Translations under genes and position numbers: made by a program | In this document: positions 18,996 to 45,190 of the stretch, piece by piece | Numbering within the stretch: position 1 is the stretch's first letter | Layout of the letters: the number at the start of each line of letters is the position of its first letter | The notes under the pieces: generated by a model | The model's input: the letters and a program-made list of their open reading frames with translations, nothing else | What the model was told of the DNA's origin: nothing | Database searches by the model: none | NCBI RefSeq assembly: GCF_016858305.2 | Contig: NZ_CP074436.1 | Coordinates: forward strand, 2,934,001-2,998,000 | Origin: Polaribacter sp. Q13 | GTDB lineage: Bacteria; Bacteroidota; Bacteroidia; Flavobacteriales; Flavobacteriaceae | Direction: 5' to 3' | Length of the DNA stretch: 64,000 bases

Positions 18996-19271
18996 TTGTC
19001 ATTTCTAAAAAAGGAGAAACCGCGTAACAGTGATAACACAAACCTGAGCAGCAACAATTGTCATTTCTACATTAGGACAAATCCCATAACAGTGATAACA
19101 CAATACCAACAAACTTTATGAGATTTCTCAATCGCTAAAAAGCTCATTTCGAAATGACAAACTGTATGGTTATTGAGTAAGTTTTAACTCTATAAAATCA
19201 AAAAACTCTAAAATTTTCACTTCGACTCACATAACAGTGATAACAGAAAACTGAGCCACAATACTTGTCAT
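18996..19271. repeat. Dispersed palindromic repeat cluster, left side of IS110-A
   Basis: Units contain GTCATTTC, GAGAAATC(T/C)CATAACAGTGATAACAC and TTTATGAGATTTCTC, so each unit can fold back on itself. The stretch from about 19095 to 19271 reappears inverted at about 41126-41300, including the non-palindromic interior (TATGGTTATTGAGTAA). The cluster is interrupted at 19271 by the IS110 element and resumes at 20534. Confidence 0.75.
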
Positions 19272-19344
19272 CCTATGTTTGTAAACTCTTAAAGTTTATG
19301 TTAAAATTAATTACATTTAAGATTAATAATAACAGAAAAGTATA

Positions 19345-19486
19345 GGGTAAAGGTTAAGATTATAGTCTGTCATTTGTCATAGAAGACCGTTCGAAATGCT
19401 AATCACTTTACCCTTTTACTACTTAAAACTTGAACAGATCATTAGGCATTAAAGTCTGCATTTAGGATTGATAAGTATTGTAGTAA
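19345..19486 (+). ncRNA. Predicted IS110 bridge RNA, element A copy 1
   Basis: Two stem-loops can be drawn. The first has stem GGGTAAAG (19345-19352)/CTTTACCC (19406-19413) plus GATTA/TAATC. Its loop holds TTGTCAT (19374-19380), identical to the left target flank, and TTCGAAAT (19390-19397), the reverse complement of core plus right target. The second has stem TTACTAC (19416-19422)/GTAGTAA (19480-19486). Its loop holds ACAGATCAT (19434-19442), identical to the element's right end plus core, and TAGGAT (19463-19468), the reverse complement of core plus the element's left end. All four guides end in AT, as the bridge RNA model for IS110 (IS621) requires. Transcript ends are not determined. Confidence 0.78.
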
Positions 19487-19508
19487 CTTTTCTATAAAAC
19501 ATTTTAAT

Positions 19509-20480
19509 ATGAGTAAAATTATAGGAATTGATATTAGTAAACAAACATTTGATGTTTCTTTTTTAAAAAAAGATAAATGGGAACATAAAGTATTTAAGAA
19601 TGTACCAAAAGGCTTTCAAAGTTTTAAAAAGTTAATAGAAAAAAATGATTGGATTGTAATGGAGGCTAGTGGTCCTTATTATGTTCAATTAGCAACTTAT
19701 CTCAACACTTTTAACTTTAATATTTGTGTTTTAAACCCTTTAATTATTAGACGCTATAGTCAAACAAGATTATACAGAGCTAAAACAGATAAAAAAGATG
19801 CAAGAACAATTGCTGAATATGGAGCTCAATATGATTTAAAGAAATGGAGCCCTGATAGTAAGGCAAGTACAGAGATAAAACAACTTTACACAGCGTTAGA
19901 ACTACTTAAAAAACAGATACATCAAACAAAAAGACAATTAGCTTCTTTTGAAGTAACGGGTTTATTAAATAATAGTCTTAAAAAAGAATTAAAACAAGTA
20001 GAATTACTCTTACAAAGACGTATTGATAAGTTTGAAAAACAAATAGAGAAAATTGGTAACCTAGCATATAAAGAAACAATTGCCCGACTAAAAACAATAC
20101 CTGGCGTAGGTATAAAGACAGCCATAATGATGTGTGTAATTACAGATAATTTCACAAAATTTGAATCACATAAACAGTTAATTGCTTTTGTAGGGTTTAG
20201 TCCTAGATTATATCAATCAGGTACAAGTGTTAGAGGGAAAGGGCATATTTGTAAGATGGGAAAATCACAAATTAGAAAATTATTATACCTATGTTCATGG
20301 TCAGCAAAAAGAGTTAATAAAGCTTGTATAGAAATGTATCAAAGATTAGAATCAAAAGGAAAACCCGAAAGAGTAATTAAAATTGCACTCGCTAATAAAC
20401 TAATAAAACAAATTTTCTCTATTGCTAAAAACAAACAGAATTATCATGAAAATTTCAAGAATTTATATGTTATAAATTAG
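19509..20480 (+). CDS. IS110-family transposase (recombinase), element A copy 1
   Basis: This 323-residue protein has the N-terminal RuvC-like DEDD domain (IGIDISKQTFDV; VMEASGPY; KTDKKDARTIAEY), a coiled coil (about 120-185), and the C-terminal Tnp domain with helix-hairpin-helix LKTIPGVGIKTAIMM and the serine segment SGTSVRGKGHI. These enzymes recombine donor and target held together by a bridge RNA. It differs from the copy at 42516 by one residue (His against Asp near residue 313). The ATG is 9 bases past ATAAAACATT, and no strong Shine-Dalgarno is seen, as is common in this phylum. Confidence 0.96.
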   Translation: MSKIIGIDISKQTFDVSFLKKDKWEHKVFKNVPKGFQSFKKLIEKNDWIVMEASGPYYVQLATYLNTFNFNICVLNPLIIRRYSQTRLYRAKTDKKDARTIAEYGAQYDLKKWSPDSKASTEIKQLYTALELLKKQIHQTKRQLASFEVTGLLNNSLKKELKQVELLLQRRIDKFEKQIEKIGNLAYKETIARLKTIPGVGIKTAIMMCVITDNFTKFESHKQLIAFVGFSPRLYQSGTSVRGKGHICKMGKSQIRKLLYLCSWSAKRVNKACIEMYQRLESKGKPERVIKIALANKLIKQIFSIAKNKQNYHENFKNLYVIN

Positions 20481-20533
20481 AAAGAAAAATATTTTAAATT
20501 TTAACAAAATATAGTAGGTTTTTAACACAGATC

Positions 20534-20575
20534 ATTTCGAAGTACTGAGAAATCTCATAACAGTAATAACACAAG
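20534..20575. repeat. Dispersed palindromic repeat, right side of IS110-A copy 1
   Basis: ATTTCGAAGTACTGAGAAATCTCATAACAGTAATAACAC continues the unit broken at 19271; joined to the left flank it restores a standard repeat. Confidence 0.75.
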
Positions 20576-40847: not shown

Positions 40848-40930
40848 GGGCGTTACCACAAGGGTCGCGCTTTCCACTATATCTTTTTGTGAAAAACAAA
40901 AAGGATACCGTTGCAATCGCTAACGCGGGC
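40848..40930. repeat. Dispersed hairpin repeat (GCGTTACCACAAGGGTC family), copy B
   Basis: Same ends as copy A at 18817 (GGGCGTTACCACAAGGGTC to TAACGC). The centre CTTTTTGTGAAAAACAAAAAG is a hairpin. Reading frames over it are spurious. Confidence 0.7.
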
Positions 40931-40949
40931 GTCGTATCTATAAATCAGT

Positions 40950-41560
40950 TGCAATTTCGTGTAGTTTTTCATTTCGAAATGCTCTTAAATGACAATTGTT
41001 GGTTTTTTTTGCGTTCAGTTTTTGGTGCACACAGTTTTGTCATTTCGACCTTTTTTTGGGAGAAATCACATAAGGTTTGGTTGGTGTTGTGTAATCACTG
41101 TTATGGGATTTCTCAGTACTTCGAAATGACAAGTATTGCGACTCAGTTTTGTGTTATCACTGTTATGTGAGTCGAAATGAAAATTTTAGAGTTTTTTGAT
41201 TTTATAGAGTTAAAATTTACTCAATAACCATACAGTTTGTCATTTCGAAATGAGCTTTTTAGCGATTGAGAAATCACATAAAGTTTGGTTGGTGTTGTTT
41301 TATCTCTGTTATGAGATTTCTCAGTACTTCGAAATGACAATTGTTGCGGCTCAGTTTTGTGGTATCACTGTTATGGGATTTTTCCTTGCGTCGAAATGAC
41401 AATTGTTGGTTTTTTTTGCGTCCATTTTTTGGTACATACAGTTTTGTCATTTCGACCTTTTTAGGGAGAAATCACATAAAGTTTGGTTGATATTGTGTTA
41501 TCACTGTTATGAGATTTCTCAATACTTCGAAATGACAATTGCTACAAATATTTTTTCTTA
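40950..41560. repeat. Dispersed palindromic repeat cluster (long array)
   Basis: Several units alternate GAGAAATCACATAA...GTTTGGTTGGTG, TTATCACTGTTATG(A/G)GATTTCTCAGTACTTCGAAATGAC and TTTTGTCATTTCGACC. It includes unoccupied versions of the IS110-A target (TTCGAA-AT-GAC) near 41120, 41331 and 41528. This fills the 754-base gap between the antiporter and GIY-YIG genes; ORFs called within it are artefacts. Confidence 0.8.
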
Positions 41561-42393: not shown

Positions 42394-42462
42394 GGAGAAA
42401 TCACATAAAGTTTGGTTGGTATTGTGTTATCACTGTTATGAGATTTCTCAGTACTTCGAAAT
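42388..42462. repeat. Dispersed palindromic repeat, left side of IS110-A copy 2
   Basis: Starts CTTTTTAGGGAGAAATCACATAAAG and ends CAGTACTTCGAA-AT, where the IS110 element begins. It abuts the truncated transposase. Confidence 0.75.
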
Positions 42463-42515
42463 GATCTGTGTTAAAAACCTACTATATTTTGTTAAAATTT
42501 AAAATATTTTTCTTT

Positions 42516-43487
42516 CTAATTTATAACATATAAATTCTTGAAATTTTCATCATAATTCTGTTTGTTTTTAGCAATAGAGAAAATTTGTTTTATTAGTTTA
42601 TTAGCGAGTGCAATTTTAATTACTCTTTCGGGTTTTCCTTTTGATTCTAATCTTTGATACATTTCTATACAAGCTTTATTAACTCTTTTTGCTGACCATG
42701 AACATAGGTATAATAATTTTCTAATTTGTGATTTTCCCATCTTACAAATATGCCCTTTCCCTCTAACACTTGTACCTGATTGATATAATCTAGGACTAAA
42801 CCCTACAAAAGCAATTAACTGTTTATGTGATTCAAATTTTGTGAAATTATCTGTAATTACACACATCATTATGGCTGTCTTTATACCTACGCCAGGTATT
42901 GTTTTTAGTCGGGCAATTGTTTCTTTATATGCTAGGTTACCAATTTTCTCTATTTGTTTTTCAAACTTATCAATACGTCTTTGTAAGAGTAATTCTACTT
43001 GTTTTAATTCTTTTTTAAGACTATTATTTAATAAACCCGTTACTTCAAAAGAAGCTAATTGTCTTTTTGTTTGATGTATCTGTTTTTTAAGTAGTTCTAA
43101 CGCTGTGTAAAGTTGTTTTATCTCTGTACTTGCCTTACTATCAGGGCTCCATTTCTTTAAATCATATTGAGCTCCATATTCAGCAATTGTTCTTGCATCT
43201 TTTTTATCTGTTTTAGCTCTGTATAATCTTGTTTGACTATAGCGTCTAATAATTAAAGGGTTTAAAACACAAATATTAAAGTTAAAAGTGTTGAGATAAG
43301 TTGCTAATTGAACATAATAAGGACCACTAGCCTCCATTACAATCCAATCATTTTTTTCTATTAACTTTTTAAAACTTTGAAAGCCTTTTGGTACATTCTT
43401 AAATACTTTATGTTCCCATTTATCTTTTTTTAAAAAAGAAACATCAAATGTTTGTTTACTAATATCAATTCCTATAATTTTACTCAT
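42516..43487 (-). CDS. IS110-family transposase (recombinase), element A copy 2
   Basis: This 323-residue protein is identical to the 19509 product except Asp for His near residue 313 (NYDENF). The DEDD residues, coiled coil, helix-hairpin-helix and SGTSVRGK serine region are intact, so it should be active. Near identity indicates recent transposition or recombination between the copies. Confidence 0.96.
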   Translation of the reverse strand: MSKIIGIDISKQTFDVSFLKKDKWEHKVFKNVPKGFQSFKKLIEKNDWIVMEASGPYYVQLATYLNTFNFNICVLNPLIIRRYSQTRLYRAKTDKKDARTIAEYGAQYDLKKWSPDSKASTEIKQLYTALELLKKQIHQTKRQLASFEVTGLLNNSLKKELKQVELLLQRRIDKFEKQIEKIGNLAYKETIARLKTIPGVGIKTAIMMCVITDNFTKFESHKQLIAFVGFSPRLYQSGTSVRGKGHICKMGKSQIRKLLYLCSWSAKRVNKACIEMYQRLESKGKPERVIKIALANKLIKQIFSIAKNKQNYDENFKNLYVIN

Positions 43488-43509
43488 ATTAAAATGTTTT
43501 ATAGAAAAG

Positions 43510-43651
43510 TTACTACAATACTTATCAATCCTAAATGCAGACTTTAATGCCTAATGATCTGTTCAAGTTTTAAGTAGTAAAAGGGTAAAGTGATTAGCAT
43601 TTCGAACGGTCTTCTATGACAAATGACAGACTATAATCTTAACCTTTACCC
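43510..43651 (-). ncRNA. Predicted IS110 bridge RNA, element A copy 2
   Basis: Mirror of 19345-19486 with the same two stems and the same four guides, consistent with both copies using the same target. Confidence 0.75.
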
Positions 43652-43724
43652 TATACTTTTCTGTTATTATTAATCTTAAATGTAATTAATTTTAACATAA
43701 ACTTTAAGAGTTTACAAACATAGG

Positions 43725-43779: not shown

Positions 43780-43860
43780 TGTCCTTTAGATTAGCAAAGT
43801 ATAATTATTGAGTTTAATTCTTATATTTAAGTCCAATATAGAACTCATGTTTTATAATAA

Positions 43861-44000
43861 AAAAGAATGGAGTGAACTTTCCTTAAGTCTAGATTTATCA
43901 GATCTATATTTCGTATTAGTCTCCATTCTTTTATTTCCGATTACAAAGGACCAAATAGAATTTCAGTTTCGACCTTTTAAAGGTTTTAGTCAACGTAATC
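43861..44000 (+). ncRNA. Predicted IS110 bridge RNA, element B
   Basis: A perfect 12-bp stem AAAAGAATGGAG (43861-43872)/CTCCATTCTTTT (43921-43932) closes a 48-base loop. That loop contains ATTTCGTAT (43908-43916), the reverse complement of ATACGAAAT, which matches the right flank ATACAAAAT at 8 of 9 positions. A second stem GATTAC (43939-43944)/GTAATC (43995-44000) closes a loop containing ATAGAAT, identical to the element's right end plus core. The left target guide could not be identified with confidence. Confidence 0.5.
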
Positions 44001-44026
44001 ATTTTTTACTAACACAAAACAAAATT

Positions 44027-45022
44027 ATGAAAATTAAACAAACTATTGGTATCGACATTAGTAAATTAACCTTTGATGTTCGTATTCACAGTAATCAGTG
44101 TTATCAAGCATTTGAGAATAACTTAAAAGGTTTTAAAGCACTTATAAAATGGGTAGAAAAAAACAACTCTATTTCTAAGGAACACACTTTATTTGTTTTG
44201 GAACACACAGGTATTTATTCTGAAGAAATCGCATCATTTTTTGATGTAAATAACTTTTATTTCGCATTAATTCCAGGTTTAGAAATAAAGAAATCTCTAG
44301 GAATATCAAGAGGAAAAGATGACAAAGTAGATGCTACAAAAATAGCATTATATGGGTATCGATTAAGAGATGAAATTAAACCATATAAACTTCCATCAAA
44401 AAACATTCATCAATTAAAACGCCTTTTAACATTAAGAGAAAGGCTAGTGAAACAAAACGCTGGTTATAAAGCAACACTTAAAGAACAGAAAAGAGTTTAT
44501 ACTAGAAAAGAGAATCAACTTCTTTTAGAAACTCAAGAGAAAATGATAAAATATTTTACAAAGCAAATTAAAAGTGTTGAAGCCGAAATGAACAAAATAA
44601 TTAAGGCTAGTGAGCAACTTAAAAAACAATACAAACTAATTGTGAGTATTAAAGGAATTGGTAATCAAACAGCTTTATTTATGATTGTTACAACCAACGG
44701 ATTTACAAAGTTTGCTTCTTGGAGAAAGTTTGCTTCATATTGTGGGATTGCTCCTTTTCCTAACACCTCTGGAACGAGTATAAGAGGTAGAACCAAAGTG
44801 AGTAATCTTGCTAATAAAAAACTCAAAAGTCTTTTTGATATGTGTGCTAAATCAGCAATACAACACAATCCAGAAATGAAGCTATTTTATAATCGAAGAG
44901 TCGAACAAGGAAAGAATAAAATGAGTACAATTAACATCATTAGAAATAAATTATTATCACGAATTTTTGCAGCTATAAAAAGACAAACTCCTTATGTAAA
45001 TGTTTTAAAATATGCTGCTTAA
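44027..45022 (+). CDS. IS110-family transposase (recombinase), element B
   Basis: The start is set at MKIKQTIGIDISKLTFDV, giving 331 residues. The open frame extends 73 codons upstream, but that part overlaps the predicted bridge RNA and has no protein similarity. DEDD residues appear in GIDISK, LEHTGIYSEE and KDDKVDATKIALYG. The C-terminal domain has IVSIKGIGNQTALFMI and the serine region PNTSGTSIRGRTKVS. It is clearly different from element A's enzyme. Confidence 0.93.
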   Translation: MKIKQTIGIDISKLTFDVRIHSNQCYQAFENNLKGFKALIKWVEKNNSISKEHTLFVLEHTGIYSEEIASFFDVNNFYFALIPGLEIKKSLGISRGKDDKVDATKIALYGYRLRDEIKPYKLPSKNIHQLKRLLTLRERLVKQNAGYKATLKEQKRVYTRKENQLLLETQEKMIKYFTKQIKSVEAEMNKIIKASEQLKKQYKLIVSIKGIGNQTALFMIVTTNGFTKFASWRKFASYCGIAPFPNTSGTSIRGRTKVSNLANKKLKSLFDMCAKSAIQHNPEMKLFYNRRVEQGKNKMSTINIIRNKLLSRIFAAIKRQTPYVNVLKYAA

Positions 45023-45055
45023 AAATTAGTGAAATATATTTGGTAGAGTCATAGA

Positions 45056-45190
45056 ATACAAAATGACAATTGTTGGGGTTTCTTTTGTGTTCAGTTTTTG
45101 GTACACACAGTTTTGTCATTTCGACCTTTTTTTGGGAGAAATCACATAAGGTTTGGTTGGTGTTGTGTAATCACTGTTATGGGACTTCTT
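45056..45190. repeat. Dispersed palindromic repeat, right side of IS110-B
   Basis: Contains AAATGACAATTGTTGG, CAGTTTTGTCATTTCGACC, GAGAAATCACATAAGG and CACTGTTATGGGACTTC, matching the array at 40950-41560. Confidence 0.75.

Follow-up and report, generated by a model that had tools for sequence, protein, structure and literature searches.

Bridge RNAs have been described across the IS110 family of insertion sequences, together with REP targets, by Durrant et al. 2024 (PMC11208160), who predicted such an RNA in 85.7% of the IS110s that they examined. For IS621 of E. coli, Hiraizumi et al. 2024 (PMC11208158) reported that AT, GT and TT cores also supported recombination and that two U are flipped out of the right donor guide (RDG). 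In the IS1111 group a DEDD recombinase is accompanied by a guide RNA, the seekRNA, and natural reprogramming was mentioned by Siddiquee et al. 2024 (PMC11187229). Other IS elements insert into REP sequences (PMC1525189) and by their description have extragenic palindromes as targets, as does the element described here. The word stem 'Bacteroid' does not occur in the main texts of Durrant et al. and Siddiquee et al. A search of the literature by title, largely outside subscription papers, found none on bridge RNAs in flavobacteria.

The window, which is the whole stretch of 64,000 nt that was analysed, contains an IS110-family insertion sequence at 19272..20535 on the plus strand, which measures 1264 bp with one copy of the core included. 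Its junctions were compared with a paralogous repeat that carries no insertion, on the minus strand at about 41090-41185, and the right end was moved to 20535 from position 20533 of the initial annotation. The same comparison with the unoccupied version gave the left target flank CTTGTCAT (19264..19271, plus strand), with the core AT at 19270-19271, and the right target flank TTCGAAGTAC (20536..20545, plus strand). A second copy at 42461..43724 on the minus strand differs at 1 of 1264 bases, position 20445 being C in copy 1 and G in copy 2. Both copies are inserted at the same point of one repeat, and their surroundings are unlike each other outside the repeat. That two near-identical copies occupy separate copies of the repeat would fit recent movement. 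The nearest named relatives of the element (87% and 80%) were found in Polaribacter, a genus of Flavobacteriaceae.

The gene of the element encodes a recombinase of 323 aa (19509..20480, plus strand) with the domains PF01548 and PF02371. Both domain scores were above their cut-offs, DEDD_Tnp_IS110 with 85.2 bits (cut-off 29) and Transposase_20 with 76.4 bits (cut-off 21.3). Residues 4-308 matched the solved structures of ISCro4 (E 1.7e-29) and IS621 (E 2.9e-27). ISCro4 (PDB 9t56), compared for its recombinase alone, belongs to the same recombinase family and was the best sequence match among solved structures. D8, E52, D94, D97 and S237 align with the catalytic residues D11, E60, D102, D105 and S241 of IS621, where our residue numbers were counted by hand on the alignment and those of IS621 were taken from PMC11208158. 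The element shares a DEDD recombinase and a guide RNA with the IS1111 group, but in that group, as described in PMC11187229, the longer non-coding region is downstream, whereas here 237 nt lie upstream of the gene and only 55 nt downstream, which is the layout of the IS110 group. The IS1111 group also has subterminal inverted repeats, but here 25 of 47 listed repeats included no exact inverted repeat near both ends. Judged by its sequence, the element is a member of the IS110 group of the IS110 family.

We interpret the locus, with a probability of about 95%, as an IS110-group element that would leave as a circle and insert by bridge-RNA-guided recombination; transcription, the circle and the position of cleavage are carried over from IS621. 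This reading builds on the anatomy of the element, the covariation of its RNA structure, the co-change of the right target guide (RTG) and the donor guides with the DNA, and the aligned active site. If the element behaves like IS621, it would be excised as a circle and the RNA of its left end would be transcribed. The first loop of this RNA would pair with the target, the extragenic repeat GTCAT/TTCGAA, and the second loop with ACAGATCAT/CCTATG, where the two ends of the element are joined. The recombinase would cut the top strands 3' of the AT core, at the position known from IS621, and exchange them.

According to the descriptions of IS621 (PMC11208160, PMC11208158), the two elements are alike in that the RNA lies in the left end with the target loop before the donor loop, the left guides read the bottom strand and the right guides the top strand, the RDG has two unpaired U, the catalytic residues align and REP-type repeats are the targets. 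They differ in the core, which is CT in IS621 (typical, not family-defining) and AT in the window element, and in the left guide, which is effective over 5-6 nt here and over 8-9 nt in IS621. A basal stem closing both loops (set against IS621 alone) and a Bacteroidota-type -7 box at the left end are also unlike IS621. The initial annotation regarded the locus as an extension of IS621 logic to a flavobacterial IS. Its bridge-RNA reading is strongly supported by our results, but the system is not new in kind (PMC11208160, PMC11208158), and as bridge RNAs were already described across the IS110 family, the window element is a further member. The gain is therefore comparative: a well-supported bridge-RNA clade, mostly of Bacteroidota by record title, that offers numerous natural pairs of guide and target and has an AT core and a near-fixed, short left target guide (LTG).

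The structure of the RNA was assessed in an alignment of 18 sequences, consisting of the 5' regions of the window element and of 17 of the 44 named loci. The two stem-loops that had been proposed for the 5' non-coding region, a target loop and a donor loop, were both backed by covariation. The target loop (19344..19414, plus strand) comprises the stems 19344-19352/19406-19414 and 19358-19362/19400-19404, which are 97.2% and 96.7% paired. The donor loop (19417..19485, plus strand) comprises the stems 19417-19422/19480-19485, 19428-19431/19473-19476 and 19444-19447/19454-19457, of which the outer one (helix 4 of the alignment) is only 62.6% paired. Over all 31 pairs, 90.6% of the cells are paired and 20 pairs changed on both sides, and neither value was reached in 500 shuffles; with the partner slid by 1-3 columns, at most 53.1% are paired. 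The number of further pair types, as another measure of covariation, was unexceptional (138 of 500 shuffles). The window RNA folded singly was no better than its shuffles, 41 of 200 of which scored at least as well (z -0.80), and the element had no Rfam match at gathering thresholds.

A covariance model (R1) built from these sequences matched the window at 19343-19488 with 150.2 bits, the window sequence being among those used to build it. With the basal stem added, the predicted structured part of the bridge RNA spans 19334..19493 on the plus strand. Within the window R1 gave two matches, which are the two element copies. Of the 44 named loci, 17 of which had gone into building it, 42 gave an R1 match on the 5' side of the gene; the two others are L086, which is cut by a contig end, and L087, which is partial. 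In genomes of the window's family, R1 matched 27 of 29 loci, whose identity is 37-42%, and missed L026, where flanks are present, and L028, where there is no upstream sequence. R1 had no match in L011, L012 and L014, which belong to another IS110 type. The arms of the basal stem, 19334..19341 and 19486..19493 on the plus strand, were examined by arm permutation: in 24 clade A elements an element's own arms had a mean of -9.5 kcal/mol and permuted arms -5.4 kcal/mol, and 0 of 5000 permutations were as low. The stem is weak in L060 (-1.7) and L055 (-4.7). For clade B the values were -8.5 and -7.7 kcal/mol (p 0.002). L044 carries tandem bridge-RNA matches at 1158-1299 and 1336-1480, with a left end directly inside the donor loop of the preceding copy, as if an insertion into the donor loop, or a loss of the part between, had taken place.

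For the guide scan we used one element per distinct RNA, which gave 25 elements in clade A (window included) and 27 in clade B. The element ends were set with left-end and right-end motifs, independently of the target guides. Each RNA segment was matched against the flanks in both senses, against the left end in the complementary sense only and against the right end in the same sense only. The clades were initially sorted by locus source, and a tree was made later. In this tree clade A is one group (98/93; 23 rows, L062 and L085 being omitted as too short), and clade B is weakly supported (64/29), with 93/99 for 26 of its 27 rows, that is, without L032.

In clade A the top segment for the right flank was columns 58-63 against R1-R6 in the complementary sense (window 19390-19395), first of 1518 with z 9.5; the z-values of these scans are inflated because the relatives are not independent. 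A five-position version without L067 and L085 gave z 8.1. This segment belongs to the RTG TTCGAAATG (19390..19398, plus strand), which consists of five nt plus the core AT and a final G; by analogy with IS621, this G is probably the handshake position. The RTG matched the right flank at R1-R5 in 22/25, 23/25, 24/25, 23/24 and 23/24 distinct RNAs (expected 0.63, 0.39, 0.58, 0.74 and 0.74) and not beyond. The initial annotation had asked whether the loops change with the flanking target, and in these 22-24 of 24-25 RNAs the RTG does follow its flank.

The co-change bears on two other explanations. The conserved 5' region could be merely a regulatory leader of the transposase mRNA, with its likeness to the flanks due to chance or shared ancestry. 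Such leaders have a precedent in ISPpu9, where sRNAs and the structure of the 5'-UTR regulate the transposase (PMC8450116), and the RNA of the window element ends just ahead of the start codon. The RTG, however, varies with the right flank, which is outside the element, and since a leader has no reason to copy an external flank, we regard this explanation as highly improbable. Alternatively, the recombinase itself might read the repeat while the RNA has just captured a fragment of that repeat. GTCAT is common to most clade A targets, which look repeat-like, and the LTG, which barely varies there, says little on this point. Against it, changes in the RTG, the left donor guide (LDG) and the RDG go along with changes in the DNA in the clade A scan, with the same strand sense as in IS621, and the targets CCAGA, TCCTT and TGTTG, though unlike, are each paired with a matching RTG. 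We give this second explanation hardly any weight and keep to bridge-RNA-guided insertion.

The scan of clade B (27 RNAs) did not recover the RDG and did not place the RTG. In the sister group L015-L043 it is the left guide segment that changes along with its flank on the left, and the right flank is near-constant (TTGTT in 24/25). This pattern is the opposite of that in the window's clade.

The LTG was the one guide whose position had to be corrected. The initial annotation had assigned it to TTGTCAT at 19374-19380. Conservation, structure and the sister group indicate that the LTG is most likely GTCAT just upstream, in the region GTCTGTCAT (19365..19373, plus strand), of which TGTCAT at 19368-19373 (6 nt) matches the flank. 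TTGTCAT overlaps the 5' arm of the apical hairpin of the target loop (19376..19387, plus strand; helix 3 of the covariation alignment), where GTC 19376-19378 and GAC 19385-19387 are 98.1% paired and 2 of 3 pairs changed on both sides in the 18 sequences. GTCAT is present in the upstream segment of 22/25 distinct RNAs and in the TTGTCAT segment of 9/25, and the mean match to the left flank is 0.90 for the former and 0.68 for the latter. The misplacement is invisible without relatives, because in the window TTGTCAT matches over 7 nt and the upstream segment over 6. This extra nucleotide favours the downstream position within the same bridge RNA, and TTGTCAT also matches its own flanks better than permuted pairs do (0.68 vs 0.64, z 3.4, p 0.002, 23 rows). 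Its GTC nevertheless covaries with GAC as a helix and the matching columns of clade B are those of the upstream segment, so that TTGTCAT is an improbable LTG.

In the same-sense scan of the left flank, columns 27-32 were best and columns 26-31 third in clade A (window 19368-19374), although the effects are small (0.82 vs 0.78 and 0.90 vs 0.83, respectively). Columns 26-31 gave z 4.3, which drops to 1.5 (p 0.11) when L067 and L085 are omitted. In these two relatives a changed upstream segment goes with a changed left flank, and the co-change of the LTG in clade A rests on them. The five GTCAT positions match in 22-24 of 24 (expected 0.84-1.00) and the sixth in 14 of 24 (0.37 expected). A complementary left-flank segment, columns 158-163, outscores the LTG (6.5 vs 5.9 in clade A, 8.7 vs 8.5 in clades A and B together); in that segment the first bases of the element are read by the donor guide. 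The LTG of clade B had z 5.5 at columns 22-26, which are the upstream segment in a register one column off that of clade A. These columns match in 22/26, 18/21, 20/26, 20/26 and 20/25, with 0.56, 0.56, 0.78, 0.75 and 0.31 expected.

The LDG ACAGATCAT (19434..19442, plus strand) is equal to the right end at 20527-20535. This left donor with its core (20527..20535, plus strand) was identified by the LDG scan and as direct repeat D9. The RDG CATTTAGGAT (19459..19468, plus strand), which can be written CA-UU-UAGGAU with two unpaired U, is complementary to 19270-19277 when the two U are left out. The latter positions, recovered by the complementary scan of the left end, hold the core AT and the right donor, ATCCTATG (19270..19277, plus strand). 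In clade A the LDG ranked first in the same-sense scan of the right end (z 5.9) and the RDG first in the complementary scan of the left end (z 6.5). The RDG co-changes with the left end in L055 and L061 (TAGAAT with ATTCTA) and in the Sphingobacterium loci (TTACGAT with ATCGTAA). Mismatches were seen in the RDG of L057 and in the LDG of L055, L060, L062 and L067. Thus RTG, LDG and RDG had been placed correctly in the initial annotation, which had considered all four guides readable, and only the LTG was misplaced.

The proposed shared AT core was also borne out, and the RDG pairs with AT only. We infer that AT is the core and that the preceding C is the handshake pair. A three-base core CAT had been mentioned as a possibility; we favour AT on account of the RDG pairing and of the G that follows the RTG core at the handshake place of IS621. 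The right ends of clade A are all CAT because the search motif requires CAT. The left junction is CAT in 42 of the 43 clade A rows that have a left end and CGT in L067, where the core reads GT at the left junction and AT at the right one. In IS621 the top strand is cut 3' of the core (PMC11208158), so that the core of the target would come to lie on the left and that of the donor on the right, as in L067 (one case).

A Bacteroidota promoter across the joined ends was also considered. The -33 box has the form TTTG. The sequence TATGTTTG (19274..19281, plus strand), which overlaps the right donor, matches the flavobacterial -7 consensus TAnnTTTG (PMC9723704). When the ends are joined, 21 of 24 clade A elements have a TTG 20 nt ahead of this box, the exceptions being the window element, L044 and L045. 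A promoter of this kind would fit most clade A relatives but not the window element, which has no upstream TTG. The ends of clade B are less certain; there, TTG was found at 19-21 nt in 6 of 24 elements.

The target is a palindromic extragenic repeat, GTCAT/TTCGAA, common in the host genome, which has 51 GTCATTTCGA and 4 of the reversed pattern. To compare guides with repeats, 22 genomes were searched with four patterns, one of which (GTCATYCWGA) spans four sequences; the L057 genome was left out. Seven of the 22 were dropped because their RTG class is outside the four patterns. In the remaining 15, RTG class and host repeat variant were associated (permutation p 0.0026, without phylogenetic correction). 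The RTG class was the top repeat variant after normalisation in 9 of 15. A strict rule that the RTG corresponds to the commonest variant of the host was rejected, as some genomes plainly fail it, among them Polaribacter Hel1_85 (78 TTCGA sites but an RTG for TGCGA). The fit between the RTG and the repeat version of its host is loose, a trend with clear exceptions. Sphingobacterium sp. CZ-2, the genome of L074, had the most sites of the 22 genomes, with 647 GTCATTGCGA sites (305 + 342 by strand; control 2), and all 11 copies fetched from it sit at GTCAT/TGCGA.

These patterns could reflect a lopsided mode of targeting, in which the short LTG stays fixed on GTCAT, the constant head of the palindrome, and the 5-nt RTG is repeatedly rewritten to the version of the host, so that the RNA would track repeats by natural reprogramming. 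We propose this tentatively, its chances falling a little short of even. The clade helps to separate the contributions of the two target guides and corrects the position of the LTG. Its less ordinary features are the fixed short LTG with a variable RTG, and the presence in the window of a second IS110 type, with a 32% identical recombinase, that uses the repeat on the other strand.

The window has nine TGTCATTTCGA sites, seven of which lie in a repeat array at 41038-41537, in both orientations. A Flavo-1 RNA (RF01705, 56.4 bits) at 40859-40943 on the minus strand adjoins this array. The second IS110 type, to which L011, L012 and L014 also belong, lies at 43783-45059 of the window on the plus strand and has four copies in the genome. 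It is inserted into the repeat used by the first element, but in reverse orientation and, by inspection, about 3 bp away from that element's insertion point. An unoccupied site adjoins L014. Its 5' region has two predicted loops (z -2.44; equalled or bettered by 5 of 200 shuffles), and segments that by eye resemble all four guides were found at 43881-43889, 43907-43913, 43955-43962 and 43975-43983.
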